Origin: a virus
Reading direction: 5' to 3' (one strand)
Virus record (IMG/VR): IMGVR_UViG_3300008450_000005
Location: 1 to 64,000 of that record
DNA: 64,000 bases
Shown: positions 846 through 47,855 of the stretch, piece by piece
Numbering within the stretch: position 1 is the stretch's first letter
Layout of the letters: each line of letters opens with the position of its first letter
Translations under genes and position numbers: made by a program
Notes under the pieces: model-generated
Databases searched by the model: none
Told to the model about the DNA's origin: nothing
Seen by the model: only the letters and a program-made list of their open reading frames with translations

Positions 846-1739
846 ATGCAGCCAAAAATCAATTATTCGCAGCCAAGGATCGGGTGGTTAAACGCCGATA
901 CTGATGCTCAAGGATGGAAAATAGAGCATCCCGCTGATTTTCTAGAACTGATAGAGATGCAAATACTCGAATCCGTTTCTAACGATGTAAAGATTGTATC
1001 TGTCAATATTTCCAATATACAGGAACTGGATTCTCTACTTGAGGATTTACTGGATTCCAAAGACGCTATGGTCAAGCATAGAATTCAGACAATCACCAAT
1101 CTGATTTCATACCATCAGATACGTTTAGTTTTTTCTCTGACCAAGACTTATTTGCTAGTACACAATTTAGAAGCCAAGAGGGAAGCATGTGTGGATATTA
1201 TAAATTCACTTGGTTTATTGATGGATATTTTTTCTCCACAGCAGGGGGACATTTTGATTCGCGTTGGTAGCGCATACGGTAACAGAAGGAATTCCATCAA
1301 TTTATTCAATAACGAGATCAAAAAAATATCGGAGTCTGCTTTTCAACGTTTAGCTATAATTAACGATGAGGAGCCCAGCTTATTTTCCGTTACCGATATC
1401 CTTGCAGGGATTTTCTTCAGTAACAAAATACCGATAGCATTCAGGACGTTATCCCACCTATCACATAACGGTGGATTGTCTTCGAGAGAAGCTTTCATGT
1501 TGAGCTATTCGACCTGGAAAGAAGGTAGAAAGCCACTTTTTGTTCATGCCGAGCCTCAAGAGATTTCTACCAAATATAAGTCCCCAATTCAGATCAAGAG
1601 TATCTTAGAGCATAGAATACCTTCTTTCAACGTAGAGTTTGATTGCTTAATCCAAACACAGGAAGGAGCGAAGGCATGCAACGTCTATAGGGCCAACTGG
1701 AAATCACTTCCGCCCATTGTCATTCCTAAAGAGGATTAG
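846..1739 (+). CDS. UvdE-like TIM-barrel protein with lost metal ligands
   Basis: The 297-aa sequence follows the order of UV damage endonuclease (UvdE/UVDE), a metal-dependent TIM-barrel nuclease that nicks 5' of UV lesions. Matching landmarks are the strand where HPGQ is expected (about 93-105), GSAYG (about 141-145), LAIINDEE (about 172-179), the segment around RTLSHLSH (about 201-208), STWKEGRKP and FVHAEP. Most metal-binding positions are changed: the HPGQ region reads FSLTKT, the His before the GAYG-type motif is Arg, the Glu of ENDE is Ile, and DTLHH reads RTLSH. One His of that pair and the His of FVHAEP remain. The fold seems certain enough, but the enzyme is probably inactive or altered. 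ATG at 846 is preferred over an in-frame TTG one codon earlier. It opens the repair group with the next two genes. Confidence 0.65.
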   Translation: MQPKINYSQPRIGWLNADTDAQGWKIEHPADFLELIEMQILESVSNDVKIVSVNISNIQELDSLLEDLLDSKDAMVKHRIQTITNLISYHQIRLVFSLTKTYLLVHNLEAKREACVDIINSLGLLMDIFSPQQGDILIRVGSAYGNRRNSINLFNNEIKKISESAFQRLAIINDEEPSLFSVTDILAGIFFSNKIPIAFRTLSHLSHNGGLSSREAFMLSYSTWKEGRKPLFVHAEPQEISTKYKSPIQIKSILEHRIPSFNVEFDCLIQTQEGAKACNVYRANWKSLPPIVIPKED

Positions 1740-1779
1740 AACTTTTTTATTAACGGGTTAATTGATGTAATTTTGGGAA

Positions 1780-2589
1780 ATGCCAGAATTAGCGGAAGTA
1801 CGATTAACCGGAGATTTCATCAACCAATCAGTTACCGAGGAGATGAGCTTCATCGGGACCTGGAAAAACCCTGTCCACAAGTTAGCCGATTTAGATCTAA
1901 CCAATGTTCTCTTACCAGACGAGGAATTTAAAATCAGAGCTGAATCGAGAGGCAAAGAGTTAAAGCTCTCTATCACTCCTCAAGAATCCCACCCCTTTTC
2001 TGTGATGTTCACCCTAGGAATGGGCGGGCACTTTTCTTTCGGTGAGGTACAAGAACGTCCTAAGCACACACATTTTTCATTTCTGACATCAGATGGTGAA
2101 AGGGAACTCCAATTCGTAGATATCCGCCGGTTTGGAAGATGGAAGATCGGGGATTGGAATCCAGATAGAAGCCCTGATCTTACAATAGAATTTGAAGCTT
2201 GGAGCAGAAACATAATGGAAAACATTCATCATAAGGATTTGGCTAAACCATTCTACGAATTTTTAATGAACCAAAAGTGGATAAATGGGTATGGCAATTA
2301 CCTGCGTGCTGAGCTTTGCGAAAGACTGGACATCAACCCATTCTGGGCAGCGAAGGATGTGGTCAGATACGATTTTGAAAGATTCTGTGAAATAGCAGCT
2401 CGCCTACCCATTGAAGCATACTTCTTAGGCGGAGGCCAAATATATTCTTGGAACAACCCTTTAGGAGTTACCAGGGATTCCGTTGTACAGGAATGGAATC
2501 AGTGGATGAAAGCATACAAGAATCCTGGATTTGAAAACTTAATTGATAACGGTGGTAGAAGATTCTGGTACCATCCCAAATGGAAATAA
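1780..2589 (+). CDS. Fpg/Nei family DNA glycosylase/AP lyase, zincless-finger type
   Basis: Base-excision repair glycosylase/beta-lyase of 269 aa. It starts MPELAEV, so after Met removal Pro is the catalytic N-terminal nucleophile followed by Glu; this fixes the start codon. Lys59 lies in RGKELKL, the usual beta-hairpin lysine. FVDIRRFGRW (about 112-121) and the helix-two-turn-helix NGYGNYLRAEL (169-179) are family landmarks. The C-terminus has no four-cysteine zinc finger. Instead GGRRFWYHP (258-266) resembles the zincless finger of NEIL1-type enzymes, with an Arg where DNA is contacted. It lies between the UvdE-like gene and an exonuclease, suggesting a phage repair cassette. Substrate preference (oxidised purine or pyrimidine) cannot be decided; the zincless finger leans towards Nei. 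Confidence 0.88.
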   Translation: MPELAEVRLTGDFINQSVTEEMSFIGTWKNPVHKLADLDLTNVLLPDEEFKIRAESRGKELKLSITPQESHPFSVMFTLGMGGHFSFGEVQERPKHTHFSFLTSDGERELQFVDIRRFGRWKIGDWNPDRSPDLTIEFEAWSRNIMENIHHKDLAKPFYEFLMNQKWINGYGNYLRAELCERLDINPFWAAKDVVRYDFERFCEIAARLPIEAYFLGGGQIYSWNNPLGVTRDSVVQEWNQWMKAYKNPGFENLIDNGGRRFWYHPKWK

Positions 2590-2590
2590 T

Positions 2591-3289
2591 ATGATAAAGA
2601 AGAAAAACATAACAAAATATCTCCTTTTAGATATTGAAACTGCCTCTCAGTATCCCACGCTTGAAGAATTGCGAGAAGCAGATCAGAAGTTAGCCGATCT
2701 TTGGGTTAAACGACACGTCTACTATTCTGGGAGCTATTTCGAGTTCAAAGATTCAACCCCAGATCAAACATATAAAGCTAAAGCCCAATTAGAGCCTGAA
2801 TTTGGAAAGATAGTTTGTGTGACATTTGGAAGTTTCAAGGATGAATCGGAAGATGCAAGGATCATGAGTTTCAGTGGTTCCGAATTGGATATACTAGAGA
2901 AGGTTAAAAAAATCCTACAGAATGCCATGGTCATGAATTTCCTTCTTTGTGGACACAACATAAAGAATTTCGACATACCATGGATAGGAAAGAGGATGCT
3001 TTACAACGGGATAAATCCTCCTGATATCATTAAAGTCGGTAATAAAAAACCATGGGAACTTTCTTTTGTTGATACCGCCGAACTACTTTCTTTTGGAAGC
3101 TGGGTCCAGCAAAAATCCCTGAGTTTAGATCTTCTGTGTCATTCATTAGGGATCAAGTCACCCAAGGGAGGGATGGACGGTTCTATGGTTAGCGAATCTT
3201 TCCATGACGGAAGAATCGAAGAGATTGTCTCATATTGCGAAAGAGACGTCGAAGCACTAGGCTCAATTTTACAACGTATAGCAGACTGA
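2591..3289 (+). CDS. DEDDy 3'-5' exonuclease, PolB-exonuclease-like
   Basis: Predicted 232-aa 3'-5' DNA exonuclease of the DnaQ/RNase H-like superfamily, close to the stand-alone PolB-exonuclease-related family (PF10108 type). Exo I is LLLDIET with Asp14 and Glu16, Exo II is GHNIKNFDIPW with Asp128, and Exo III is YCERDVEA with Tyr215 and Asp219, the Tyr making it DEDDy. LGIKSPKGGMDGSMV before Exo III is characteristic of this family. All four metal-binding acids are present, so it should be active. ATG 2591 lies one base after the glycosylase stop; an upstream in-frame TTG would sit inside the glycosylase gene and is rejected. A repair or proofreading role is inferred from family and neighbours. 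Confidence 0.85.
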   Translation: MIKKKNITKYLLLDIETASQYPTLEELREADQKLADLWVKRHVYYSGSYFEFKDSTPDQTYKAKAQLEPEFGKIVCVTFGSFKDESEDARIMSFSGSELDILEKVKKILQNAMVMNFLLCGHNIKNFDIPWIGKRMLYNGINPPDIIKVGNKKPWELSFVDTAELLSFGSWVQQKSLSLDLLCHSLGIKSPKGGMDGSMVSESFHDGRIEEIVSYCERDVEALGSILQRIAD

Positions 3290-3333: not shown

Positions 3334-4116
3334 GTGCTGTACCGTTTCCACCAATATATTAACGAGAAAAAAGTTTCTGAATTTTATCACGATGAACTAA
3401 ATCCTAAGTTTTGGACTAAAAAAACTAACAAGGATGGTTCTATCGATTGGGTATTCGATAAGAATATCAGAAAAAAGCTATTAAAAATAGCGGATGATTT
3501 CTATTCCAAATTTGAAGATACGATCGGCAAGCCCAAAATCGTAGATATTCAATTGACAGGCTCCCTGTCAAATTATAACTATACAGATTATTCGGACCTC
3601 GACGTCCATATTTTGGTTGATTTCGATAAGATCGATGCACCTAAAAAGGTTTTGAAATCTGCGATTGACGGAATCAGATTTATTTGGAATCTCCGCCACG
3701 ATGTCAAATTGAGAGGTCACGAGGTAGAAACATACATGCAAGATGAGGATGAACCTCATACAGCATCTGGCCTTTACTCGTTAATGGACGATGAGTGGAT
3801 AGTAAAGCCACAATTCGATCCGCCAACAGTTGATCCTGCAGACGTTCAAACCAAGTATGAAGGTATTGCTTCGGACATCGATAAGTTAGAATCTAAACTT
3901 GCCAAAGATAAATTACCCGCCGACCAGGCCAAACTTCTTTTCAGCCGAGCTAATAAGCTAAAGGATAAAATCATGAAGATGAGAAAGGAAGGATTGAGCG
4001 AGGAAGGTGAGTTCTCCGTAGGTAATCTTGCTTTCAAGAAGCTTCGTAATAAGGGATATATAGAAAAATTGATCGATACGATCAGTTTGGCTTACGACAA
4101 AATTTACTCTGAATAA
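3334..4116 (+). CDS. Nucleotidyltransferase-fold protein with capsid-targeting-like N-terminus
   Basis: 260 aa with GTG start. GS at 76-77 followed by SDLDVHIL (87-94) is the signature of the Pol-beta-type nucleotidyltransferase fold (G-S, then D-x-D metal ligands); an acidic residue around 125-130 (HEVETYM) may be the third ligand. Such proteins transfer NMP groups to nucleic acid, protein or small molecules; the substrate here is unknown. The N-terminus RFHQYINEKK resembles the T4 capsid-targeting peptide and ends in I-N-E, a likely cleavage site for the prohead protease two genes downstream. I infer that it is packaged in the head and ejected. The C-terminal third is helical and charged. 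Its stop overlaps the next ATG by one base. Confidence 0.72.
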   Translation: MLYRFHQYINEKKVSEFYHDELNPKFWTKKTNKDGSIDWVFDKNIRKKLLKIADDFYSKFEDTIGKPKIVDIQLTGSLSNYNYTDYSDLDVHILVDFDKIDAPKKVLKSAIDGIRFIWNLRHDVKLRGHEVETYMQDEDEPHTASGLYSLMDDEWIVKPQFDPPTVDPADVQTKYEGIASDIDKLESKLAKDKLPADQAKLLFSRANKLKDKIMKMRKEGLSEEGEFSVGNLAFKKLRNKGYIEKLIDTISLAYDKIYSE

Positions 4117-6754: not shown

Positions 6755-8719
6755 GTGAAAAATCAGGACTTAAACGAAAATTTGGTTTTCATCCTCGAGA
6801 GACAGGAAGCTGTCTTAGAAGCGAAAACCAAGGATGATGAGGTAGTTCTAGAAGGTGTTGCTGCTGTTTTCGGCGAAGAAAACAACAACGGACGAATCTA
6901 CGACGAAACCGAATACCTTCCACATTTGGAATACCTTAAAGAAAAAATCGCTCAGAATAGATTGGTTGGTGAACTTGACCATCCTGAGAAATTTGATGTT
7001 TCTTTGAAAAACATTTCTCACTTGATCCAAGAGCTTGATTACGATAAAAGCAAGAGATGCTTGAAGATCAAAGTAAAATTGTTGGATACCCCAGCTGGTA
7101 AAATTGCTAAAAGTTTAGTTGAAGCAGGAATTCCTATTTCAATTTCTTCAAGAGCAGCTGGTAATGTTGGTCCAGACAAGAAGGTTCAGATCAAGAAAAT
7201 TTTCACTTATGATCTAGTTGCTGATCCTGGTTTCAAGAATGCACAACTCTATAGAGTTAATGAAAGCGTAGATTTCAGCTTCGAAGAATTCAAAAATTAC
7301 AAAAAAAATAGCGTTGTAGCATCGCTTTCGTTAATAAATGAGAGCTTAGGATTAAAAAATGATTCCTTGACTCAGATATATAGCGTATCGAACAACGAAG
7401 AGTTCGAAAAATTAATCGGTATAGACAAAATAAAACAAGCACAAATGGATAATAACAAAGAATTCGTTACTGCAGACGAGCTTAACAAATACTCAGTGTA
7501 TTTGAAAGAGCAGATGAAAGCAATGAAGGAAGAGATCAATTCATTGAAATCTGCAGCTGATGTTTCTGCTACACTCGAAGTTTCTGAATCAGAATCAGGT
7601 TCTGAAGCAGACGCAAGAATCGCTAAATTAGAAAAGTATTGCGCCTACTTGGGAGAGAATTTAGAAAATTCGATCCGTTACGGAGAATACGTTGCTAAGA
7701 ATTTGGATGATTCAATTTCTTACTCAAAGTATTTGGCTAAGAGTTTAGATGAGAGCATTAGTTATTCTAAGTACTTGGCTGAGAATCTTGATAAGACGAT
7801 CGGCTACAGCGAATATGTTGCTGAAAGCGTAGACAAGAACATCGAATACAGCAAGTATTTGGCTGAGAAATTAGATACTAACATTTCTTACTCTGAGTAC
7901 ATTGCAGAAAATTTGGATAAGAATATTTCTTATTCTGAGTACATTGCAGAAAACGTAGAAAATAACATTGCTTACTCTGAGCATCTTTCTGAAAAGATCA
8001 ATCAAGGTATCTCTTACTCTGAGTACATTGCAGAAAACCTCGAAAAAGGTATCTCTTATTCAGAATACGTTGCAGAGAATGTTAACAAAGGTCTTGCATA
8101 CTCTGAGTACATCGCAGAGAAATTGGATTCTTCAATCCGTTACACCGAGTACATCGCTGAGTCTGTAGACACCAAAGAAACAGCTCCTGCTTTGAATGAG
8201 CAGGCTAAATCTGAAGCCGAATTAGCTTCTGCATCAGATTTGAATGAGTCTGGATTTGCTGGTGATTATGCAGATTTAGGAACTAAAATTGACAAACTTA
8301 TTGAATCAGTTAATACACAGAAGACTGAAAGTTTAATAAAGGAAGCTGAACAAAAAGTTTCCAAGGCCACAACACAGAAGGCTATCAACGAATCTCAAGA
8401 TGCTGATGTGAACGAAGGCGAAACCCCTAAATCAGGTTTCAAATTTATTGACGAAATGCCTGAAGAATTCCGTCCCGCATGGGAAGGTTTGAATGAGTCT
8501 CAACAGCACTCAATCAAAGCACAGGCTGCTCTTCGTAAACTTGACACCGACTACCAGATCAGAAATTTCTGGTCTACACGTCAATTGGGTGTTGAACCTA
8601 TCGGTTTACAGAAGTTGAATGAGAACGCAGAAATCCCAACTGCTGCAAATTCAAAAGAAATCTACGGTAATGGTTACTTGGATTTCTTAAGTAAAGAGTT
8701 GGAGAAACGCTTCAAATAA
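6755..8719 (+). CDS. Prohead protease fused to repeat-rich scaffold protein
   Basis: 654 aa with GTG start. Residues about 30-180 match the T4 gp21-type prohead serine protease: AVFGEENNNGRIY, the His in GELDHPEKF (His76), and Ser131/Ser132 in ISISSRAAG. It cleaves scaffold and capsid proteins after (L/I)-x-E. The first 23 residues hold LNE, ILE and VLE and are probably a self-cleaved propeptide. After a helical linker come thirteen 14-residue repeats (294-475), then an acidic linker and a C-terminal part ending near EFRPAWEGLNES and NFWSTRQLG, like a scaffold/core protein that binds the shell. In T4 protease (gp21) and scaffold (gp22) are separate genes; here they are one. Internal LNES sites (195-198, about 577-580) may release the scaffold during maturation. 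The capsid gene follows after 18 bases. Confidence 0.82.
   Translation: MKNQDLNENLVFILERQEAVLEAKTKDDEVVLEGVAAVFGEENNNGRIYDETEYLPHLEYLKEKIAQNRLVGELDHPEKFDVSLKNISHLIQELDYDKSKRCLKIKVKLLDTPAGKIAKSLVEAGIPISISSRAAGNVGPDKKVQIKKIFTYDLVADPGFKNAQLYRVNESVDFSFEEFKNYKKNSVVASLSLINESLGLKNDSLTQIYSVSNNEEFEKLIGIDKIKQAQMDNNKEFVTADELNKYSVYLKEQMKAMKEEINSLKSAADVSATLEVSESESGSEADARIAKLEKYCAYLGENLENSIRYGEYVAKNLDDSISYSKYLAKSLDESISYSKYLAENLDKTIGYSEYVAESVDKNIEYSKYLAEKLDTNISYSEYIAENLDKNISYSEYIAENVENNIAYSEHLSEKINQGISYSEYIAENLEKGISYSEYVAENVNKGLAYSEYIAEKLDSSIRYTEYIAESVDTKETAPALNEQAKSEAELASASDLNESGFAGDYADLGTKIDKLIESVNTQKTESLIKEAEQKVSKATTQKAINESQDADVNEGETPKSGFKFIDEMPEEFRPAWEGLNESQQHSIKAQAALRKLDTDYQIRNFWSTRQLGVEPIGLQKLNENAEIPTAANSKEIYGNGYLDFLSKELEKRFK
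7634..8179 (+). repeat. Thirteen 14-aa (42-bp) tandem repeats in the scaffold region
   Basis: Thirteen consecutive units of 14 residues with consensus SYSEYIAENLDKNI fill residues 294-475 without gaps. Tyr at positions 2 and 5, Ile/Leu/Val at 6, Ala at 7, Leu/Val at 10 and Ile/Leu at 14 are conserved. The spacing equals two heptads, so a long helical rod or coiled coil is likely. DNA identity between units is only partial, so the repeats are not recent duplications. Confidence 0.9.
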
Positions 8720-8737: not shown

Positions 8738-10441
8738 ATGAAACTCATTAACGAATCTGAGATTTATGATACCTGGGCGCCTATTTTGGAATCAAAAACC
8801 GGTATCAGCTCTCCCGAGAAAAAAGAATGGTTGGCTAAATACTGCCACTACCACTCATTAAACGAATCTGCCGGTGCATACAACACTTTGGGTGTATTGA
8901 ACGGTATGGGTCCTGTTGCTCCTCCTTTGTACCCTGGTATGAGCAGCTTCAGCGGTTCAAACGCTAACGCTGGTTTCTACAACAGTGCAAACTTTGGATC
9001 TGGTGACAAATTCCCTAGCTTATTGCCTTTGGCTATTCAGGTTGCTGCTAAAACCGTTGGTTTTGACATCGTTCCTGTAATTCCTATGTCAGGACCTACT
9101 GGCGTATTGTCTTACTTGGATTATGTTTACGCTGGTGGTAAATTGAACCCTAGCCAAATCAGCGCATCTTCAACTTCTGCTGAAGCTTTGGCTGCTGCTC
9201 CTTCAATGATTAAAGTTGAATTGTCTTCTGGCGCTTCTTCTTTGACCGTTGGTACTACTTACTACTTGACTTCAGCTACTTCAGCTGCTGCTTACATCAC
9301 TACTGCTTTCGTTGGTTACTCACGTATCGATGGCTTCGCTATCTTCCGTATTACCGACATGACAACAGGTGAAACAGTTGCTTCTACAGTTGCTTCAGGT
9401 ACTAAAGTTGGTACTTCAATCGACACTACAACTGGTGGTGGTACTGCTGCTGGAACTGCACAATTGGTTAAAACTTTGGAAGATCACATTCAAGGTTTCT
9501 CTGGTGCTGGTTTCAACAACAACCAAAACTGGCAAGGTCCTTACGTAGATGGTACTAAGACCTACAACCCAATGTTGAGAGGTACTGCAGAATCTACCTA
9601 CTACAATTCACTTGGTTTGAACACCTTCACCAAATTCGTTGAAGCTGACACTTTCCAAGTTGCTGCATCTGTAACTACTGAGCAAATTCAAGATTTGAAT
9701 AAGCAATTCGGTATCGACGTGATCAGCATGATCGAGAACGCTTTGGTTAACGAAGTATCTCAAGCCATCAACAAGCACATCTTGGCTCGTGCATTTGCCT
9801 TAGGTTGGTCTAACTGCTTCCAGTTCAACGCTACCGAAGGTCAAAACATGAACTTGAACTTGGTTATCGGTGGTACTGCAGGTTCTTACACTATTCCTTC
9901 ATACGTAGGTAAAGCAGATGCTGCTTTGACTATGACTGGAGTAGCTGGTCCTTCTTCAGGAACTTACGAGAACTTGTCTACTCTTCAGCGTCGTTTGTTC
10001 TCACGTATTTTGGCTGCTGCCAACGTCGTAGCAAACCGCGGACGTCGTGGACCTGCTAACTTCATCGTTACTAACGCTAACATCGCTAGTGCTTTGCAAG
10101 ATATCAGCCAGTTCACTTTCGCTCCTTTCACTAACACCTTGACTCAAAACAACGGTACTTTGTATCCTGTAGGTTCATTGGCTGGTATGACTGTATATGT
10201 TGACCAGAACATGGCTTTCAACGATACTCGCGTATTGGTTGGACGTAAAGGTGGTGATGACGAACCAGGTTTGAAATTCATGCCTTACATGATGGCTGAG
10301 TCAATTCAGACTATCTCAGAAGGTACTATGTCTCCTAAAATCGCAGTTAAGTCTCGCTATGCTTTGGTAGAAGCTGGACACTTGCCTGAGACCATGTATT
10401 TCTGCTTCAACGTTAACATCCCTGCTGGTGGTATTAACTAA
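8738..10441 (+). CDS. Major capsid protein, T4 gp23-like
   Basis: 567-aa shell subunit. FDIVPVIPMSGPTG corresponds to gp23 FDICGVQPMNSPTG. MTVYVDQNMAFND, VLVGRKGG, LKFMPYMM and IAVKSRYALVEAG follow the order of the gp23 C-terminal half. The N-terminus has INE, ILE and LNE sites; by analogy with gp23 the prohead protease should cut after Glu43 (HSLNE/SAGAY), leaving about 524 aa. A Ser/Thr/Ala/Gly-rich stretch around residues 150-250 is probably a surface insertion domain. Codon choice is strongly biased (Leu TTG, Ala GCT, Asn AAC, Phe TTC), unlike most neighbours, as expected for the most abundant virion protein. The start is preceded by an A-rich tract with no Shine-Dalgarno sequence, typical of Bacteroidota. 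A strong terminator follows. Confidence 0.92.
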   Translation: MKLINESEIYDTWAPILESKTGISSPEKKEWLAKYCHYHSLNESAGAYNTLGVLNGMGPVAPPLYPGMSSFSGSNANAGFYNSANFGSGDKFPSLLPLAIQVAAKTVGFDIVPVIPMSGPTGVLSYLDYVYAGGKLNPSQISASSTSAEALAAAPSMIKVELSSGASSLTVGTTYYLTSATSAAAYITTAFVGYSRIDGFAIFRITDMTTGETVASTVASGTKVGTSIDTTTGGGTAAGTAQLVKTLEDHIQGFSGAGFNNNQNWQGPYVDGTKTYNPMLRGTAESTYYNSLGLNTFTKFVEADTFQVAASVTTEQIQDLNKQFGIDVISMIENALVNEVSQAINKHILARAFALGWSNCFQFNATEGQNMNLNLVIGGTAGSYTIPSYVGKADAALTMTGVAGPSSGTYENLSTLQRRLFSRILAAANVVANRGRRGPANFIVTNANIASALQDISQFTFAPFTNTLTQNNGTLYPVGSLAGMTVYVDQNMAFNDTRVLVGRKGGDDEPGLKFMPYMMAESIQTISEGTMSPKIAVKSRYALVEAGHLPETMYFCFNVNIPAGGIN

Positions 10442-10564: not shown

Positions 10565-11275
10565 ATGAAGAAAATATTGGAGTACCGCGAATACCTTGAC
10601 AATAAAGAATTATTGGAGGGTTTCAGCCAAGATTCACCTGTTCTTGCTGAATTTTCCGAATTCATTTCGGAATCAATTAACGAATCTTCGTTTGTTCGTG
10701 GTGGTGACCAAATTCTAAACAACCTATCAAAAGCACTCTTTGGATCTCTTTCTAAAGTTTCGATGATCGATCAGACGGTTGATAAGATTTATCAGTTGAA
10801 AGCAAAACTAATAGATCAGGAGTATAATATGATCAAGGAGTTTGATAAGATTCAGGATAAGGTTAAAGAACTCAGAAGCAGCGGTGCTAGCCCTGAAATG
10901 GTCAGATCGGTACGCAAGCAGAGAGACGCAAAGCAAAATGAATTCGAGGCTTTCGAAAAAAGGACCAATCTTGAGATTGAAAGAGGAATGAAACTTCTCG
11001 GAGAAATCATTGGGAATAATAAAAGAAGGCAAGAATATTCAGATTCAGTAATCTCGCAAGCAGAAGTTAATCTGGCTGATTATGAATATAAGAAAGCAAA
11101 AAAAGAAGGTAAGGCAAGCGAGGCAGAACTGAAACAATTACTCAGTAACTTAGAAGACAAAAAAGAGGAATTGAAAGACGAAACCCAAGATTTAAAAGAT
11201 CTTGCTGCAAAACAGCAAAATCCTAAGCCTAAAGTTCCTGTCATGAAAGTAAGCAAGCCAATAAAGACAGCATGA
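10565..11275 (+). CDS. Probable internal head protein, coiled coil
   Basis: Unrecognised 236-aa protein, mostly charged helix and predicted coiled coil (about 70-220) with a basic Pro/Lys-rich end. The N-terminus MKKILEYREYLDNKELLEG holds ILE and LLE sites. A second targeting-like motif, EFSEFISESINESS, lies at about 28-41. Cleavage at either would remove the leader. It has a similar plan to the next gene (leader, LFG, then Glu/Lys helices), so the two may be old paralogues. It overlaps the next gene by ATGA. Its position behind the capsid gene and the leader suggest an internal or core protein. Confidence 0.6.
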   Translation: MKKILEYREYLDNKELLEGFSQDSPVLAEFSEFISESINESSFVRGGDQILNNLSKALFGSLSKVSMIDQTVDKIYQLKAKLIDQEYNMIKEFDKIQDKVKELRSSGASPEMVRSVRKQRDAKQNEFEAFEKRTNLEIERGMKLLGEIIGNNKRRQEYSDSVISQAEVNLADYEYKKAKKEGKASEAELKQLLSNLEDKKEELKDETQDLKDLAAKQQNPKPKVPVMKVSKPIKTA

Positions 11276-12150
11276 AAAATTTAGTAAGTTTCTCAGATTA
11301 TAACCTGAACGAATCGGTTCTATCGGATTTATACAATTCGGTGAAGAGACTATTCGGAGGTCAAAAAAGCAAACTTGATTCTCTCGCATCTGAATACGAG
11401 GAGGAAGAAATGAGCTATGCTAAAGAATGGAATGATATCGTAACGGATATTGACGAGCTTCAATTAAAAGAAACCGAGCCCGATTTAACTCCGGGTGAAA
11501 AAAGAGCTTATACACGACAGATTTCAAACAAAGAAAAATTGTTGAAGACTCTGGAGGTTAAAAGAGATCGTGAGATCAATTTTATCAATAAAAAAGCTCA
11601 GGAGATCGCCGGTAGCGATCCTAAAATCTCAGCGTATTGGGAAGTTAAAAAAGCTGGAATTGAATCAAAGATAGCTAAAAAACTTTTCGATTATGGTAAA
11701 AAGGTATCGAGCAAAACGTATACGCAAGGATTGAAATCCAGATACGAGAATGCAGCTCGCAATGCACGCAGTGCAGAAAGAACATTCAAGAATTACTTCA
11801 GCCAAATTGACACTGACGGAAAGAAAAGTTCAGAAAAGACTGTTAAGGAAGAAGATATCAAGACAAGAGAACTGATCGACATGCGTTTGAGTGATTTTCC
11901 TGACGCAATCAAGAAATTTCCTCAGTCTAAGATTAGAGAAATCCTTAGGGATCTAAAAAAAGAAAGAAACGAGACACTTCTTGCTTCTGATCTTGAAAGA
12001 GATGAGATTTACAAAAAATCACAAAAGATCTCCGATAATAAAAAAGCTAAAGAATTCACAGAAGAGGAATTTAGAAAAATCACAAAAAAGTACCGTGATA
12101 AAATTTCTGATCTGCGATCTAAAATAACAATAGCTCAGCGATATGATTAA
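11272..12150 (+). CDS. Probable internal head protein with capsid-targeting-like leader
   Basis: Unrecognised 292-aa, Lys/Glu-rich helical protein. The leader MKNLVSFSDYNLNES is one of the clearest copies of the shared N-terminal peptide: aromatic residues three apart, then L-N-E-S as predicted cleavage site. The body has coiled-coil character (about 35-110 and 225-290) and high basic charge, as in T4 internal proteins that condense with DNA. It is coupled by ATGA to the gene before and overlaps the next start by 8 bases, so the operon is translated as a unit. Confidence 0.62.
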   Translation: MKNLVSFSDYNLNESVLSDLYNSVKRLFGGQKSKLDSLASEYEEEEMSYAKEWNDIVTDIDELQLKETEPDLTPGEKRAYTRQISNKEKLLKTLEVKRDREINFINKKAQEIAGSDPKISAYWEVKKAGIESKIAKKLFDYGKKVSSKTYTQGLKSRYENAARNARSAERTFKNYFSQIDTDGKKSSEKTVKEEDIKTRELIDMRLSDFPDAIKKFPQSKIREILRDLKKERNETLLASDLERDEIYKKSQKISDNKKAKEFTEEEFRKITKKYRDKISDLRSKITIAQRYD

Positions 12151-12397
12151 AAGATATAATCAATTTTTGAATGAGGCTTCAAACGAAACCGAAATCAAAA
12201 CTTTAGAGGTAGACATCTCCAAATTGAGAGATCAGATTGCCACAGCTAAAGATGCGGTTAAGAATGCTGCGAATGACGCAGCCAGAAGAACAGCTCAGAT
12301 CAATGCGTATAATGTTGAATCGACCGTTCTAACCCAGATAGCTGCTAAGTTAAAAGAACTTGCCCGTTTGATGGCATTACCAACTACAACTACATAA
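12143..12397 (+). CDS. Small internal head protein with T4-IP-like leader
   Basis: 84 aa. The leader KRYNQFLNEA aligns almost residue by residue with the T4 internal-protein capsid-targeting peptide (KTYQEFIAEA), ending in L-N-E-A. The rest is one alanine-rich helix with heptad-like spacing and a Thr-rich tail (PTTTT). Cleavage after Glu would leave about 73 aa. The start lies inside the end of the previous gene. This is the best single case for capsid targeting in the window. Confidence 0.66.
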   Translation: MIKRYNQFLNEASNETEIKTLEVDISKLRDQIATAKDAVKNAANDAARRTAQINAYNVESTVLTQIAAKLKELARLMALPTTTT

Positions 12398-14973: not shown

Positions 14974-15528
14974 ATGATTTATTTAATAGAAGGAGCTAGA
15001 AATTCAGGTAAAACATTCATCACCTCTTTTTTCAAAGAATCCAAAGATTATAAATTTCCGTTCACCCGATGGTTTGGTGATCTCGGTTACAATGATGAAA
15101 AGAAAGAAACCCATGATTTTGCATTGGGTAAAGAGATCATGCTGTTAGATCTGAATAAGAAAGGGTTTATCGAAGAAATGATATGCGACAGAGGAATCAT
15201 CACGGTTTTTGTCTGGGCAGTTCTCTCCGGAAGAATTTCGGAACAGAGAGCTCTGGAGGAACTCAATCTCGTAATCAAGGATGGACTATTCGATAATGTT
15301 AAGATCCTTTGGGTAAAAGGTAAAAACCCGGATCAGACATCCCGCAATAAAGATTTCTGGGACAGAAGAGAGCAGGAGAGGGAGAAAGAACATTTGCTTT
15401 TTAATTCATTTTTAGGGAAACTGAAAGGGGATAGTGCACATATAGATATTAAAGAGATCGAAAATACTTTTGACGAGCAGGTAAAATCAAGATTGGAGGA
15501 AATCAAAAATGTGTGGAATATTAATTAG
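14974..15528 (+). CDS. P-loop kinase, deoxynucleotide-kinase-like
   Basis: 184 aa. The N-terminal Walker A GARNSGKT (7-14) is followed by ICDRGIITVFVW (about 70-81), like the DR-x-S region of thymidylate and deoxynucleoside kinases. A basic RNKDFWDRREQER segment (about 127-140) resembles their lid. It probably phosphorylates a nucleotide or nucleoside, but the substrate cannot be read from sequence. It overlaps asparagine synthetase by 20 bases, so the two are a translationally coupled pair behind their own promoter. It has no capsid-targeting leader, unlike genes on both sides. Confidence 0.62.
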   Translation: MIYLIEGARNSGKTFITSFFKESKDYKFPFTRWFGDLGYNDEKKETHDFALGKEIMLLDLNKKGFIEEMICDRGIITVFVWAVLSGRISEQRALEELNLVIKDGLFDNVKILWVKGKNPDQTSRNKDFWDRREQEREKEHLLFNSFLGKLKGDSAHIDIKEIENTFDEQVKSRLEEIKNVWNIN

Positions 15529-16909
15529 TTTAGATAATTCTGAGAAAAGAATAATGTCAATCTCTCACAGAGGGACTGAGCATCTAACCATCGAAAGCAA
15601 CGGGGTTTATCTAACCCATCACCGACTACCTATCCAAACCTATGACGGAGACTCTTGGCAGCAGCCAATCGAAATACAAGAAAATGTTTATTTACTTTTT
15701 AATGGAGAAATTTTTAACTATGATACGAGCCTTTATTCATCAGACACAGAATATTTGGTTGATCTCTTCAGAGGATGGAGGGGTGATAATATCCAACTAT
15801 TTACCGCCAATTTTTTACCTCATATCCTGACATGGGACGGATTCTGGTCTATAGCAATAATTGATACAAACACTAAAGATATTATTGCTTTCACAGATCC
15901 TCTCGGGAAGAAACAATTATACAGGAACAAACAAGGAGAACTTTCCTCTGAGATAAAAGGTGTTAGAACAGCAGATTCTAAACTGAATCAACACTTCATC
16001 AGCACCGTTCTAAAATTCGGCTATAATACGGATAGCAACACAACTTGGGAAAATGTTGAACGACTCAAGCCGAACACCATCTATCATTGGAACCTTGCAG
16101 CAGCCGACTTTGTTACCACGTTCAGCAAATACTACAACTTCAATCACCCGATTTCTGATTTAGCCGGATCTGATTACGAAGCTCACATGGAATGGCTTTG
16201 GACTGCTATGTTCAGAAGCGTTTCTAGAAGAGCATTAGTTTCTAAGTATCCAACCTCTCTGTTGGTTAGTGGAGGATTGGATTCTGCTATTATTGCTGGA
16301 ATCATGCACCACCAGAATATTAATAGCCAGTGGTTCAGTATTGAAAACGGAGAGACCGAGTATGTCAAGCTGCTGGCTGAAAAATTCGACGCCAATCCTT
16401 TTTATCTTACCTATTCTATGGAAGACGATCATCGTTTCATTTATGATAAATGGAATGAATCGCCTATAGATCTTGGTTCTGTAATCCCTCAATTTTACCT
16501 ATTTGATGCAATTAAAAAGAACAGTAATTTCCGGGTAGTAATTTCCGGCGATGGTTCTGATGAATTATTTGGAGGATATCGAAGGATTGATGAATACGAT
16601 TCCCAGTCATCGGATATTTTTGATGAGCTAAGTTACTATCATCTTCCTAGATTGGATAAGATGTCTATGGCTCACACAATAGAGCTCAGAAATCCATTCC
16701 TCGACCACGAAATAATCAGATTTGCATTGAATCTTCCTTTTGAATGGAGGAAGAATAAAAAGATACTAAAAGACACATTCGGTCCAATTCTTCCAGCTGA
16801 AATAGTGGAAAGGAAGAAAGAGGCTTTGAAAAATCCGCAAATCAAGCAGGATGCAATCCAGTATAGATACAAAGTTGTAGGCGATTTCATTGACCGCAGG
16901 GATATATAG
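15509..16909 (+). CDS. asnB: Asparagine synthetase (glutamine-hydrolysing), compact
   Basis: Makes asparagine from aspartate, ATP and glutamine. Residues 1-180 form the class II glutaminase domain: Cys2 after Met (MCGI, which fixes the start), SHRG, THHRLPIQ, LFNGEIFNY, DTEYLV and FTDPLGKKQLY. The synthetase domain has the PPi-loop SGGLDS (254-259), VISGDGSDELFGGYRR, and RLDKMSMAHTIELRNPFLDHE. At 466 aa it is shorter than typical bacterial AsnB (about 550-630), mainly at the C-terminus and between motifs, but the key residues are present. A phage copy may support Asn-rich virion protein synthesis or modify another carboxylate; the second is speculation. Its last codons contain the GATATATAG element for the next gene. 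Confidence 0.88.
   Translation: MCGILISLDNSEKRIMSISHRGTEHLTIESNGVYLTHHRLPIQTYDGDSWQQPIEIQENVYLLFNGEIFNYDTSLYSSDTEYLVDLFRGWRGDNIQLFTANFLPHILTWDGFWSIAIIDTNTKDIIAFTDPLGKKQLYRNKQGELSSEIKGVRTADSKLNQHFISTVLKFGYNTDSNTTWENVERLKPNTIYHWNLAAADFVTTFSKYYNFNHPISDLAGSDYEAHMEWLWTAMFRSVSRRALVSKYPTSLLVSGGLDSAIIAGIMHHQNINSQWFSIENGETEYVKLLAEKFDANPFYLTYSMEDDHRFIYDKWNESPIDLGSVIPQFYLFDAIKKNSNFRVVISGDGSDELFGGYRRIDEYDSQSSDIFDELSYYHLPRLDKMSMAHTIELRNPFLDHEIIRFALNLPFEWRKNKKILKDTFGPILPAEIVERKKEALKNPQIKQDAIQYRYKVVGDFIDRRDI
16901..16909 (+). promoter_or_regulatory. Putative promoter GATATATAG inside the asnB end
   Basis: Variant of the repeated element with a terminal G, 26 bases upstream of the ATG at 16927 and overlapping the asnB stop codon. 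The spacing matches the main class of promoters. Similar G-ending copies also occur inside genes (4055, 7375), so confidence is lower. Confidence 0.45.
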
Positions 16910-17935: not shown

Positions 17936-18427
17936 ATGCAGAATCTAAGATCCTTTTCAGACTTTTCAATTAACGAAAGTAAGTCTGATCCTAAATCAAA
18001 CCCAAGTTTTAGAATTTGGTCTCAGTGGAGATCATGGATCAATATGTCTGCAAATGAAATTGAGAAATTCCTAAATTCAGATCAGGGCAAGGAAGCTGGA
18101 CTATCCAGAAAAGAGGCAAAGAAAGAAGGCGGGATTAAGACTGGAAGAGATTCAGCCCGTGCTTTAGTTAGAATGATACCTAACGGTGGAAGTTGGAGAT
18201 CTGCTTTGGATAATTGGAGTCCTAACGATTGGGAGTGGGCTAGAAGACAAGTTTCTTTTAACTCAAGAATGAGTGGGATGAAGCCCACTACGAGAGACCC
18301 GCATTTTGAAAAAAATGGTGAATACACCGATTGGATGAAATCCATGCTTATATGGGGACATGATCCCAGAAAGCCAAAGAGACAGGTTGCTTCCGAACCA
18401 ACAAACCTTAAACCAGAATACAAATAA
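17936..18427 (+). CDS. Probable internal protein with clear capsid-targeting-like leader
   Basis: 163 aa. The leader MQNLRSFSDFSINES is a clear copy of the shared peptide with I-N-E-S as likely cleavage site. The body contains AGLSRKEAKKEGGIKTGRDS, then RMIPNGG and DWEWARRQVSFNSRMSG, a Trp/Arg-rich pattern that I believe also occurs in small bacterial proteins of unknown function; I cannot name the family. The protein is strongly basic, consistent with DNA contact in the head. It is followed at once by a bidirectional terminator. Confidence 0.6.
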   Translation: MQNLRSFSDFSINESKSDPKSNPSFRIWSQWRSWINMSANEIEKFLNSDQGKEAGLSRKEAKKEGGIKTGRDSARALVRMIPNGGSWRSALDNWSPNDWEWARRQVSFNSRMSGMKPTTRDPHFEKNGEYTDWMKSMLIWGHDPRKPKRQVASEPTNLKPEYK

Positions 18428-19708: not shown

Positions 19709-20620
19709 ATGAATTTACTCAGATACGATCAATATAGAATAAATGAAGGCTTCAGCTGGGAAGACGAAGAAATCCTCCTGCCTTGTTTAACCGGAGAGGA
19801 GCAGCCAGACTTTTTCCCTTGCTTACACCTGGTCACTTCGGGTGAGAAAGATCATTTGAATTGCTGGAATAAAAAGGGAGAGATGGTTCTCGATTTCCCA
19901 ATAGCACGGTCTTCTTACGAAATAGCCACAGACAACCCGGGAAATTTACAAATGCTGAAAATGAATCCATGGAGTACATGGATGAGAAATGAAGCTAATA
20001 GGGAAAACATTTTAGATCTGAAAGAGATTCTAGATGACACCGAAGAAGAGGATGATTTTAATCCAACCGACGAGGTTTTGCTATTTTTAGATCTTTGCGG
20101 ACTGAATTCACTGAAAACTAATTCTCACCAGAAATTAGAAAACGGAATCCACCTAATTGGATTGGATAACGGAATGGAGGCTGAGGTTGACTACGACGAA
20201 GAAAATAGGCTCATGAAAAAGTTAGATATTTTTTCTGCACCTAATGAAAAATACCCTGCAATCAGTATTTGCATCAAGCCGAAGTTAAAATGGGGTTTCA
20301 GAATTGATGACATGAATTACGAGATTAATGATGTCAAGAAGATCTCTGATCGCCAAAATTTGATTAGCTCATTAATCACTGCTGCTTTGGGCAAAACTCA
20401 GGATGATGAATCGATTGGGAATATCAGATCGTATTACGAGGAGCAACTCGCATCTCTGAAAAAACTTGTTAATTTACCAAATTTCCATAGATCAAATCTC
20501 GATCAAAAAGACGAAGAGATTTATAGATTCAAAAATCTTGTCTCTAAATACATAGGAGAAAAAACTGCTGACGAGCTTTACAAGAAAGCAAAATCTGAAA
20601 TATACCAACATTATAAATAA
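19709..20620 (+). CDS. Probable internal protein with capsid-targeting-like leader, 303 aa
   Basis: Unrecognised body. The leader MNLLRYDQYRINEG closely follows the shared peptide, with I-N-E-G as cleavage site. ATG 19709 is chosen because the leader starts there; an in-frame GTG 15 bases upstream overlaps the previous gene. The first half is acidic (DDTEEEDDFNP near 110) with several Cys and Trp, and the last 80 residues are charged helix. A head location is inferred from the leader. Confidence 0.6.
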   Translation: MNLLRYDQYRINEGFSWEDEEILLPCLTGEEQPDFFPCLHLVTSGEKDHLNCWNKKGEMVLDFPIARSSYEIATDNPGNLQMLKMNPWSTWMRNEANRENILDLKEILDDTEEEDDFNPTDEVLLFLDLCGLNSLKTNSHQKLENGIHLIGLDNGMEAEVDYDEENRLMKKLDIFSAPNEKYPAISICIKPKLKWGFRIDDMNYEINDVKKISDRQNLISSLITAALGKTQDDESIGNIRSYYEEQLASLKKLVNLPNFHRSNLDQKDEEIYRFKNLVSKYIGEKTADELYKKAKSEIYQHYK

Positions 20621-27472: not shown

Positions 27473-29746
27473 ATGGCAACATCACAAAATAGGTTGAATT
27501 TTCTAAGCGGGTTCAAAAATACACCGCAGGGAGGATACGAGGATCCAACCTATCTTGGATTCAAAATTATATTTGATTTCGAAGGAGCTCTTCCGATTGG
27601 AGCAGATGACGGGTTACCCCCTAGCCCTTTATTTAAGGATAGCGCATACGGAACCTCTGCGAATGGAAGTATGGCCGGTACGAATCCATTTGGATTAAAT
27701 GAATATAATTTCAGAGGAAATAATATAGATTTTCATTCTGCCCAATCTTATCTTGTACAAAGAGAGGATGGATATAACAACGGACAGGGTGGAAAAAGAG
27801 CTGATGCCCTAAATCAATTTAAAAATCTTCTCAAACAAATCAATAACGAATCACCTTGGTTTTTCCAGAGTATTCAAGGACTTGATAAATTAGCAAGTGT
27901 TGCTAAAACCGGCTATAATGGTGCAGCAAATGCGGAGATTGGATTCAATTCACACAGAACTTCTGGCAAGTTTCTAACTTTTTCGTGTTTGGAATCTTTA
28001 AATCTTAGGGTTTCTACACTTGCTGAATTATACAGGCAGTCTACCTTCGACTTCGATTATATGAGAGAGGTGGTACCACGCAACCTAAGAAAATTCAAAA
28101 TGTTTATCTATGTTTCGGAAATCCGAAACCTTAATAAAACTAGTAGACTCAGTGCGCTATCAGCTTCAGTACAAGCTTTAGGAGCTACCACCAATTTATT
28201 GACAAACGGGATGAATCCCGGAAACTCGCTTGGTGAAGGAAGCACACCGAACGCTGCCCAGAATTCTTTAGTTTCTGGAATACTTAATAAAAGTGGTCTT
28301 CAGAGTGATTTCCAGGCATTGTCTAACTTCGGTAATCAAACTGAACAATCCGGCGTTACCCCATACATAATTTTTGAATGCGGACAATGTGAATTTGATT
28401 TTGATTCAACAACTCCGATAAAAAATACAATGGATAATGGTTCTGGACAAGCCACCCCGGAAACAGCATCCTTTATCGTTCATGTTGGAAAAATAAGAAC
28501 TAAAATTCAGGCTCCGAACATTAGGGATGACGGAAATTTCTTGATTGTTGCGGACAACTTCGAACTTGCTTCTTCTAGTGTCAAAAAAGTAAATAGAGAG
28601 ACTGACGCTCTTAATAAAGAGGGTTCTTTCCTGGATGGACTTTTAATACAGGGACAAAATGCTTTAACCAATTTTGTTGGTAATTCAATAAATAATTTTG
28701 TCAACACCCAGGTTAGCCGACTATCAAATATCTTAGGTGGTGTTGATAGGTTCCTTTTGGGTAACGTTTACAGTTTTGCCCCAGGAGCTGCCTTATCAAA
28801 CCCAAGTTTTGATAACATCACAGATCTCGCTCAGCAGTTCAACAATGGATTGGACCTTCGCGGATTAATAAGAAATGAATCTAAATTACCAAATCCCCAG
28901 ACTTCTGGACTAGGAGGTCCGCCTCAAAGAGCATATGCGAATCCAGAAGGTGATAGTTATTCAGGAGTTCCTGGGAATGATCTAGGCGTACCCAACCGCA
29001 TATATCAGCAACCTAAAGGAGATGCCTATCCAAATGTTCCTGGTGGCGACCTGGGGGTACCTCAAAGATCTTATCCATCCGTGGAAGCTGACGTTTACGC
29101 TAATGTACCCGGATCAGATCTTGGCGGCCCACAAAGGATTTATCCATCTCCTCTTGATGATTTTTATCCCGATTCTCCTGGAAGCAGTTTAGGTGTTCCT
29201 GACCGCATATACCCAGAACCAGAGGGCGATTTTTATCCAACCAATCCTGGTGAAAGCTTAGGAGTTCCTGATAGAGTTTATAGCCAGCCAGAAGGGGATG
29301 TTTATACGAGAGTACCCGGATCAGATCTAGGGGTACCTGACAGAAGATACACATTAGATAACACCGATGTATACCAAAAATCACCGGGAAGCGATCTAGG
29401 TGTACCTGATAGAAATTACGATTTCGATGGCGGAAAGGTTTATCCTGCGCAGGATCAGAATCTGAGATCACCACAATTTGGTGCAATCTATGAGGAATCA
29501 CCTTTGCAATCTTCTGGTATAAAGGAGAGAGTTTACAGAGAGGCTGAATCCAACAGCCGATTTGATACCCCTGCGGGAAATCTTTATGGTCCGCAGCCTC
29601 CTGACTACAATTCAAAAAACCTTGGTATGGTTTATTCGAAATTAGCCGAAGACTTCCAACCTGATACCCAATCTTTAGGGAACCTTAAGCCGGCTGACGG
29701 ATATAATTTCAGTCTCGGAGACATAAACGGAATTGACGAAGATTAA
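27473..29746 (+). CDS. Tail/baseplate structural protein with seven 23-aa PGxDLGVPxR repeats
   Basis: 757 aa. Residues 1-485 form a structural part with FLTFSCLESLNLRVSTLAEL, YIIFECGQCEFDFD and a long helical stretch. Residues 487-647 are seven 23-residue repeats ending in PGSDLGVPDR, then degenerate Tyr/Pro/Gly-rich sequence to about 740. The repeat part has few hydrophobic residues and should be extended, perhaps as a tether or tape threaded through the hub. It lies between hub and spike genes; its stop overlaps the spike ATG by one base. A tail-tube initiator or gp48/gp54-type role is possible but unproven. Confidence 0.6.
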   Translation: MATSQNRLNFLSGFKNTPQGGYEDPTYLGFKIIFDFEGALPIGADDGLPPSPLFKDSAYGTSANGSMAGTNPFGLNEYNFRGNNIDFHSAQSYLVQREDGYNNGQGGKRADALNQFKNLLKQINNESPWFFQSIQGLDKLASVAKTGYNGAANAEIGFNSHRTSGKFLTFSCLESLNLRVSTLAELYRQSTFDFDYMREVVPRNLRKFKMFIYVSEIRNLNKTSRLSALSASVQALGATTNLLTNGMNPGNSLGEGSTPNAAQNSLVSGILNKSGLQSDFQALSNFGNQTEQSGVTPYIIFECGQCEFDFDSTTPIKNTMDNGSGQATPETASFIVHVGKIRTKIQAPNIRDDGNFLIVADNFELASSSVKKVNRETDALNKEGSFLDGLLIQGQNALTNFVGNSINNFVNTQVSRLSNILGGVDRFLLGNVYSFAPGAALSNPSFDNITDLAQQFNNGLDLRGLIRNESKLPNPQTSGLGGPPQRAYANPEGDSYSGVPGNDLGVPNRIYQQPKGDAYPNVPGGDLGVPQRSYPSVEADVYANVPGSDLGGPQRIYPSPLDDFYPDSPGSSLGVPDRIYPEPEGDFYPTNPGESLGVPDRVYSQPEGDVYTRVPGSDLGVPDRRYTLDNTDVYQKSPGSDLGVPDRNYDFDGGKVYPAQDQNLRSPQFGAIYEESPLQSSGIKERVYREAESNSRFDTPAGNLYGPQPPDYNSKNLGMVYSKLAEDFQPDTQSLGNLKPADGYNFSLGDINGIDED
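28931..29413 (+). repeat. Seven 69-bp (23-aa) tandem repeats in a tail protein
   Basis: Seven units of exactly 69 bases run without gaps, each encoding an Asp-x-Tyr-x3-Pro-Gly-x-(D/S)-Leu-Gly-(V/G)-Pro-x-Arg frame. An eighth, degenerate unit follows. The first residues of each unit vary, while PG, LG and R are nearly fixed. Confidence 0.93.
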
Positions 29747-46500: not shown

Positions 46501-47123
46501 CCGGAATTGCTTTGCCTTCTTCGGTATCTAAAATACCTTCTGTTTTCAAAATCGCCCAGTATAATCCCCCGATCGGTATCAATTACGGAAACGTTGATTC
46601 CAGATATGGCGAAGGATCCTGGAATTGGTGCGATGTGCACATGAATGGATCTAATTTCAAAATCCCTCTCATGAGCACGGTCTTCATGACAAACTATCCT
46701 TCTGATATCTACGGGAAGAATATGAATACGTGGAGATTGCTCGACTCGAGATCTGGCGATAAGATTTTGGATGTAAGAAAAGTACCTTATTTCATTTATA
46801 CGTTTATCAAGCCTGGTTTCTATACTCTAGAAAATTCTGTAGAGGATGCAAACGGGAACGTCTATGAGATAACCCAGAATGCTTTCATCGAGGTCGTTGA
46901 TCATACCGCTAAAAAAGAAGATGATCCGGATCCGTTTGTAGTAAATTCCTCAGACTACGGCTACACAGTTCCTAAACAAACCCAGGAAGTGAAGATTAAT
47001 GATCTTTCTAAAGATCTATTAGCTGAGCAAATGAGAATATTGAGACAAGCTGGTGAGAATCTTAAAGGATCTCCGTTACTTTTGAAAAACGATCCAGACG
47101 CTACATTTAGACCTATAGATTAA
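43509..47123 (+). CDS. Giant tail protein with Reg_prop-type beta-propeller
   Basis: 1204 aa. Residues about 5-330 contain propeller blades of the two-component-regulator-propeller type: KLDNKNRVWAVGQD, ENSGLPGNQIRAIEFDENG, NVWIGTESGFCFYD and GDLPNDNIISAELI. Such blades are typical of extracellular sensors of Bacteroidota hybrid two-component systems, where they recognise glycans. Here they seem to be built into a virion protein. The rest is beta-rich with Gly-x-Thr-Gly runs (TGITGPTGGPIG near 596-607), and a PKD-like segment lies near 1110-1160 (GFYTLENSVEDANGNVYE). The stop overlaps the stop of the convergent PhoH gene by 4 bases with no terminator between. Confidence 0.65.
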   Translation: MPANDLKITQIKLDNKNRVWAVGQDISYFDGDNWTYLNYQNSALPSNDPYYLDTRCLSIDADQSKWIGCANGPCISDVAVTKLYGQDNEKSESWTFTELGFTGGYYQCPVIEASPYGSEVLAFINSLNDGIGVTGTTGFIGATAGNLLIYNTEAREWRNILGEGNTIPRVYTIQPRGLDGFSYEYWIGTSNGIWILKDSYYQTENLYSESIYVPHVKVLTTENSGLPGNQIRAIEFDENGNVWIGTESGFCFYDFNEWQAWNSSSFTNLSSNLITTITVRPNGHIFFSAGEGELKQGTGLYHFNGSFLTNFDVSTGDLPNDNIISAELISQNTQNDNFRNYTNDLWISCYNDLVQFSYVIPHVRATSDYEGATGWDFVDYTNTDSLRLPKANKYTWDYPSWSGDDFDYLMRQHPGTDPRLLFVNSDLESIITGEVGNPNFYSAGPIPLSSQIQTAEGLTGSSFLVSATGGTAYITTSTTNNGNVIVGGYTNAAGVYLGYKNGSNYVQFANPNPTNAGSPVPAGSNLNAGFLAYYSKSGQPLGAIPFRGYSTKVLSVSSGFNDESIFVAGTFRRYLEVGKFVYNNVYPNAASLTTTGITGPTGGPIGLSSLYYPGITGPTFEYPWILNGATASVSGPFIPDPSLISNDAESLFVLEIDHNLGSSMSFGDINFGVTGGFERSYKVKNFRYFPIAASDFDATGVTGIFGYLNTESIHLDAGNKWVNVVLGVSGGYSTLANQWEFTNDLPNNNPFEFSSYSSGYLQSGSMIQLDRDLNLYDSFITAGTGNTHFNQSVQDSSSNTILVTGSTNQNFTFGSTGSTAANNLGHEPFFFVTDRNGTVTSKGIQIVKRGFYDDENYGVFAFSHEGLYSVATITEQNPNYSINQGSYSVTGGTSFYVQRFTPNGMIKKEFSYPINDSFAFLDESIITERDEYVLNMKQFGSTGTTGYYKAYKLSLSGTLNDTLDLTSNQIEVAGLSLAYDADSNLYYSITHSGATGATGIALPSSVSKIPSVFKIAQYNPPIGINYGNVDSRYGEGSWNWCDVHMNGSNFKIPLMSTVFMTNYPSDIYGKNMNTWRLLDSRSGDKILDVRKVPYFIYTFIKPGFYTLENSVEDANGNVYEITQNAFIEVVDHTAKKEDDPDPFVVNSSDYGYTVPKQTQEVKINDLSKDLLAEQMRILRQAGENLKGSPLLLKNDPDATFRPID

Positions 47124-47809: not shown

Positions 47810-47819
47810 ATATGAACTC

Positions 47820-47829
47820 GATATATATT
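47820..47829. promoter_or_regulatory. Candidate bidirectional promoter in the 46-base phoH/fibre gap
   Basis: GATATATATT reads as GATATATAT on the plus strand, 36 bases before the ATG at 47856, and as AATATATAT on the minus strand, about 11 bases before the phoH ATG. One near-symmetrical AT element may therefore serve both divergent genes. Confidence 0.45.
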
Positions 47830-47855
47830 CAACAGCTGAAATAAGAAAAAAAACT

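Follow-up and report, generated by a model that had tools for sequence, protein, structure and literature searches.

In a 64,000-nucleotide stretch of viral DNA (positions 1 to 64,000 of IMG/VR record IMGVR_UViG_3300008450_000005; hereafter the window), a single gene encodes a gp21-type prohead protease fused to a scaffold-like region, the middle of which is an array of thirteen 14-residue units that match, residue by residue, the capsid-targeting sequence (CTS) of T4. In most of the array-bearing phages, this motif also occurs at the N-termini of proteins more often than expected. On balance, we favor the reading that the fused gene encodes a self-cleaving prohead scaffold composed of CTS-like modules, which cargo proteins would join with one copy of the module and whose core the protease would dissolve. 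The record is a 116-kb fragment, and since near-kin contigs with the same gene reach 374 kb, the window probably derives from a huge phage.

The open reading frame starts with GTG, contains no internal stops and lies directly upstream of the gene for a gp23-like capsid protein. The features of this locus are as follows.

6755..8719, plus strand: fused prohead protease-scaffold gene, 654 aa (ORF call and family matches; the fusion recurs in relatives L001-L029 and L084-L163)
6815..7270, plus strand: S77/gp21-type serine protease domain, aa 21-172 (Pfam S77/S80, match to 5jbl, conserved core)
6980..6982, plus strand: codon of the catalytic His76 (invariant in relatives; aligned with a residue that is Ala in 5jbl)
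7145..7147, plus strand: codon of the probable catalytic Ser131, followed by Ser132 (invariant; Ser131 aligned with a residue that is Ala in 5jbl)
7271..7630, plus strand: linker, aa 173-292; contains candidate cleavage sites of the LNE type, including INES at aa 194 (motif search)
7631..8176, plus strand: thirteen 14-aa units, aa 293-474, consensus IxYSEY[ILV]AENLDK[NSG] (period, conservation, predicted continuous helix)
8177..8716, plus strand: C-terminal region, aa 475-654, rich in [ILV]NE[SAGNQ] cleavage-like sites (motif counts)
8675..8716, plus strand: C-terminal amphipathic tail YLDFLSKELEKRFK, which resembles a repeat unit without the P1 glutamate (sequence)
8738..10441, plus strand: gp23-like major capsid protein (Pfam Gp23, E=1.2e-40)

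By profile cut-off and the conserved catalytic His and Ser, the N-terminal domain is a gp21-type prohead protease. The protein matched the Pfam families Peptidase_S77 (E=1.6e-7; 31.5 bits against a cut-off of 27) and S80 (E=3e-8) as well as PHROG 207, the head maturation protease (E=3.4e-31), and a profile of the protease domain retrieved the crystal structure of T4 gp21 (5jbl, E=1.8e-9). In that alignment, His76 and Ser131 lie opposite two alanines of the crystallized gp21, and 20 relatives all retain His76, Ser131 and Ser132 without change, in agreement with the first-pass annotation, which had proposed a gp21-like catalytic part with His76 and Ser131/132. Because it is Ser131 that aligns with an Ala position of the crystallized protein, this residue rather than Ser132 is the likely nucleophile. 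Motif enrichment (see below) suggests that the fused protease may cleave after Glu at [L/I]-x-E. T4 gp21 (Peptidase_S77) shares the homologous catalytic domain with its His and Ser motifs and the predicted preference for Glu at P1, and both proteases are encoded directly upstream of scaffold/gp23 genes. However, T4 gp21 is a protein of 212 aa separate from gp22, whereas in the window the protease is followed by about 480 more residues, the array among them.

Close relatives of the fused gene were found on 29 viral contigs. A broader scan with the protease domain returned at least 536 loci, 80 of which were kept for a check of the repeats; in-phase repeat cores are present in 78 of these, and of the remaining pair one is a fragment of 142 aa and one a record truncated at 274 aa. 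The earlier proposal that protease and scaffold are joined in one gene is thus upheld, as both the fusion and the period occur in one intact frame in about 100 independently assembled relatives. The same open frame in these loci also removes the explanation that a frameshift artefact had joined two genes. Homologs with the array are also encoded by the 462-735-kb metagenomic phages LR756500-LR756504 and LR745206 (unannotated records), in which the fused protein is homologous over most of its length at 35-40% identity and has the same 14-aa array with 12-14 units, degenerate in LR756500.

Fusion as such is not unique to this phage group. A long fused protease, with a scaffold-like region, is also encoded by Tenacibaculum phage PTm1 and by the Prevotella Lak phages, and in PTm1, as in the window, no gene separates it from the capsid gene. 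Both nevertheless lack the 14-aa CTS-like array, the Lak proteins having an acidic low-complexity region and PTm1 another repeat, and both lack the N-terminal enrichment described below. In Flavobacterium phage MaF61 (L064), the protease is joined to a stretch exceeding 1000 aa with many LNE motifs, again without the 14-aa array; this is another design of fused scaffold. The annotation 'Prohead core scaffolding protein and protease' was discarded as proof of known fusions, as in T4-like phages this label sits on ordinary short gp21 genes beside a separate gp22. One genome (G003, which contains locus L027) has, besides the fused gene, a second short protease-like ORF (C1:289348-289545, 217 aa, phrog_207 E=3e-7), possibly a paralog of the prohead protease.

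A search for a separate scaffold gene with the gp22 families phrog_237 and phrog_10922 (the PA5oct counterpart) gave no match in five related records of up to 374 kb, all 'linear', namely the 116-kb fragment containing the window and four contigs of 343-374 kb, a diverged scaffold elsewhere being possible. The first-pass annotation had also described the C-terminus as shell-binding-like. A C-terminal region is indeed present, but homology to gp22 was not found for it, either by the PHROG scan or by hhalign (probability about 1%). We therefore call the protein a scaffold on account of its position, helix content and density of cleavage sites: like gp22, it lies beside the protease and gp23, is predicted to be helical and is rich in cleavage-like sites. 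With T4 gp22 (phrog_237) it shares the location just upstream of gp23, the long helices, the many [LI]xE sites and a short amphipathic C-terminal tail; it differs in that no sequence or profile homology is detectable and in that gp22 has no CTS-like motif. The tail, YLDFLSKELEKRFK in the window, reads YMNYIASALEQKF in relatives. The gp22 proteins likewise end in a short Y..A..R(F) helix.

The array has a period of exactly 14 aa, unbroken over thirteen units and 182 residues (aa 293-474), just as the first-pass annotation had stated, and TRF detected it at the DNA level too, as a 42-bp repeat. In the columns corresponding to CTS positions 4, 7 and 10, 93 of 200 same-residue pairs of units in the window use different codons, which argues against recent DNA slippage and indicates that the DNA drifts without changing these amino acids. 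Fourteen residues correspond to two heptads, i.e. four turns of a coiled coil, and the hydrophobic moment of the array peaks at 3.50 residues per turn (0.36, compared with a maximum of 0.21 in 500 shuffles). Structure prediction, proposed earlier as a check of the supposed helical rod, gave for the array alone a single 193-residue helix in the best of five AF2 models (pLDDT 82), the other four being of low confidence; the full-length protein was modeled with a mean pLDDT of 48 (low confidence), with helices over the array. The array is therefore likely to be helical, as judged from these models.

The match to the CTS is the most informative feature of the array and was absent from the first-pass annotation. 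T4 IPII and IPIII have the N-terminus MKTYQEFIAE/A (the slash marks the cleavage site), and residues 4 and 7 of the T4 CTS direct targeting, while residues 8 and 10 direct processing (PMC9026906, a review of Black's work). The repeat core YxEY[ILV]AE (Y-S-E-Y-I/L/V-A-E) aligns without gaps to CTS residues 4-10. Conservation, assessed over 387 units of 29 loci, is highest in the columns corresponding to position 10 (E, 4.18 bits), 4 (Y, 4.10 bits) and 7 (Y, 3.86 bits), and column 8 is I, L or V in all 387; thus, the positions mapped in T4 to targeting and processing are the best conserved and close to invariant in the units. In the window itself, the glutamate at position 10 is present in 11 of the 13 units. 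The unit consensus has a BLOSUM62 score of 28 against YQEFIAE, which none of 249,535 other 7-mers from three related genomes and 6 of 200,000 shuffled units (in any phase) reached, these match frequencies being descriptive because the CTS was chosen for comparison after the likeness had been noticed. The features of a T4-type CTS (aromatic residues at 4 and 7, a hydrophobic residue at 8 and Glu at 10) are found both in the repeat columns and at the N-termini of predicted cargo proteins. In T4, however, the CTS is a single N-terminal leader of cargo, whereas in the window thirteen copies lie inside the scaffold and further copies occur singly at N-termini. The T4 core proteins gp22, gp67 and gp68 lack a CTS-like motif; since T4 uses the CTS all the same, targeting by the CTS can do without an array.

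Candidate cleavage sites are dense in the rest of the fused protein as well. In the linker plus C-terminal region (293 aa), seven copies of the pattern [ILV]NE[SAGNQ] were counted where 0.14 would be expected, and the array has twelve [ILV].E sites where 2.8 would be expected. The array sites are of the type [ILV]AE and the other candidates of the type [ILV]NE, a difference that counts against the model proposed below. Two segments of the gp23-like capsid protein fit the motif shared by the array and the CTS: the N-terminal YDTWAPILE and the predicted maturation site YCHYHSLNE/S (residues 35-43; 8840-8866), which corresponds in place to the AFGSFLTE/A at which T4 gp23 is cut. The simplest reading of these motifs is that the fused protease would cut at related sites in its scaffold, in the leader of the capsid protein and in those of cargo.

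Six genes in the window encode proteins with a CTS-like N-terminus and are predicted to specify cargo.

3334..4116, plus strand: predicted head cargo, N-terminus MLYRFHQYINEK, phrog_36119 (N-terminal motif)
10565..11275, plus strand: predicted head cargo/core protein, N-terminus MKKILEYREYLDNKELLE (at the same place in relatives, N-termini of the MKNLPSFNDFKKYESLIE type)
11272..12150, plus strand: predicted head cargo/core protein, N-terminus MKNLVSFSDYNLNES (relatives have MTLKFKEWNELNEA at the same place)
12143..12397, plus strand: predicted head cargo/core protein, N-terminus MIKRYNQFLNEA (N-terminal motif, relatives)
17936..18427, plus strand: predicted cargo, N-terminus MQNLRSFSDFSINES (N-terminal motif)
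19709..20620, plus strand: predicted cargo, N-terminus MNLLRYDQYRINEG (N-terminal motif)

In the genes downstream of the capsid gene and in the upstream phrog_36119 gene, the N-terminal motif is kept across relatives while the neighboring leader residues change. The product of 3334..4116 has a weak, sub-threshold resemblance to nucleotidyltransferases (E=0.012). An adenylate kinase homolog (Pfam ADK, E=3e-22) carries a CTS-like leader in two genomes, that of the window, on its contig outside the stretch (G000:92127-92783, equal to L052:8127-8783), and a relative (G001:142406-143035), so the head may contain a packaged nucleotide kinase, as judged from this leader.

Several other genes in the window were recorded. 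Consecutive DNA-repair-like genes occupy 846-3289 and comprise UvdE-like (E=5e-6), formamidopyrimidine-DNA glycosylase-like (E=2e-13) and PolB-type 3'-5' exonuclease-like (E=1e-15) products. An asparagine synthase with a glutamine amidotransferase domain (15509-16909, E=4e-39) is encoded inside the head gene region, a PhoH-like ATPase (47120-47935, minus strand, E=4e-60) on the opposite strand within the tail/structural region, and a repeat tail rich in proline and glycine (GVPxRxYxxPxGDxYxxxPGSDLG) lies at 29000-29600 in the ORF 27473-29746.

Enrichment of the N-terminal motif was measured by counting the pattern [FY]..[FY][ILV].E within the first 20 residues and comparing observed with expected numbers per genome, the ORF starts being called by a simple heuristic. 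The contig of the window has 5 occurrences against 0.3 expected (p=1.5e-4), the 373-kb relative G1 has 8 against 1.0, and LR756500, LR756502 and LR756501 have 19 against 2.4 (p=1e-9), 16 against 2.2 (p=6e-8) and 28 against 2.2 (p=5e-17), respectively. The motif is thus enriched 7- to 17-fold at N-termini in five of the six array-bearing phages, the copies in the array itself being internal. It was not significantly enriched in the sixth, G3 (3 against 1.9), nor was it enriched in the fused relatives that lack the array, Lak-A1 (1 against 1.6) and PTm1 (2 against 1.3). Replacing Glu with Asp in the pattern abolished the enrichment. The spacing control [FY].[FY] was flat except for a mild excess in LR756501 (12 against 6.1), but the control [FY]...[FY] was also enriched in LR756502 (24 against 6.6) and, mildly, in G1 (11 against 3.4). 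With a PSSM made from the thirteen units of the window, the N-termini scored no better than with column shuffles (11 of 50; shuffles up to 12), and a BLOSUM top-40 test exceeded every shuffle in LR756500 only. An unbiased scan of three-element N-terminal patterns returned at the top mostly compositional patterns (ILVM, KR), with [ILVM]..[FYW]..[FYW] among the top ten for the pooled set.

These observations can be assembled into a working model. A long helical core protein, with a gp21-type protease fused to its N-terminus, would contain in its middle thirteen modules equivalent to the T4 CTS, which would pack as amphipathic coiled-coil rods to form the prohead core. Cargo proteins with one N-terminal module would be drawn into this core and pack as one more unit. 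Once the shell is complete, the protease would cut after the module glutamates and, as their motifs suggest, at LNE/S sites in the linker, the C-terminal region, the capsid protein and the cargo leaders, so that the rod would fall into peptides of roughly 14 residues and the cargo would be freed inside the head. We propose more tentatively, as a reading that is quite possible, that the prohead core of these huge phages is a polymer of CTS modules and that the CTS acts by mimicry: a cargo leader would be recruited as a further copy of the repeat of the scaffold, the array itself would be the CTS receptor, and one fused protease would erase all the copies together.

The main rival to this model, which we regard as rather unlikely, takes the array for a dissolvable rod and nothing else, i.e. 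thirteen protease sites in a coiled coil; the likeness to the CTS would then come from cleavage by the same protease, with the aromatic residues at P4 and P7 as protease preferences, and the receptor would lie elsewhere. The capsid site YCHYHSLNE/S and the AFGSFLTE/A of T4 gp23 speak for it, as they fit the motif although they are cleavage sites, and [LI].E sites are frequent in T4 gp22 too, at 5.9 per 100 aa. However, the seven LNE-type sites elsewhere in the fused protein mostly have no aromatic residues at those positions, indicating that a site may be plausible without them, and residues 4 and 7 of the T4 CTS were mapped to targeting and not to processing (PMC9026906). That the array is a generic coiled coil, which resembles the CTS because helix-forming residues happen to coincide, seems to us highly improbable. 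Helices of the type YxxY[IL]AE are not exotic, two heptads make up the period, and the comparison was made after the fact; yet as good a match was absent from the proteome 7-mers and rare among the shuffled units, the functional CTS positions coincide with the most conserved columns, and the N-terminal motif is enriched in five of the six array-bearing phages and in neither of the two that lack the array.

The first-pass annotation had interpreted the repeat block as a length-defining rod, a claim that the unit counts do not support. Near kin mostly have 13 units and others 14-16, and this constancy, which holds even for units as much as 95% alike, together with the length of about 27 nm of one helix of 182 residues, could suggest a molecular ruler, with head size fixed by the number of copies. 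However, 13-14 units are found in phages of 343, 349, 373, 634, 636, 642 and 735 kb, so that genome size doubles with no change in their number, and the number differs among close relatives. Since head volume should follow genome size and unit number does not, we conclude that unit number does not set head size, and we rejected the ruler as the least probable of the readings considered.

A protease of the gp21 type, a cleavable core and the CTS are each already known. A tandem CTS, or a scaffold of tandem CTS-like modules, was not found in the open-access literature searched, and the tandem CTS-like scaffold may be the new element. According to a review from 2023, protein localization in the T4 scaffolding core is still mysterious and the structure of the core is unresolved (PMC9958956). 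A scaffold composed of tandem targeting motifs would be a concrete candidate for the partner on which the CTS tag docks. The N-termini may help to predict which proteins of uncultured huge phages are packaged into the head, and the arrangement may offer a modular design for loading phage heads.
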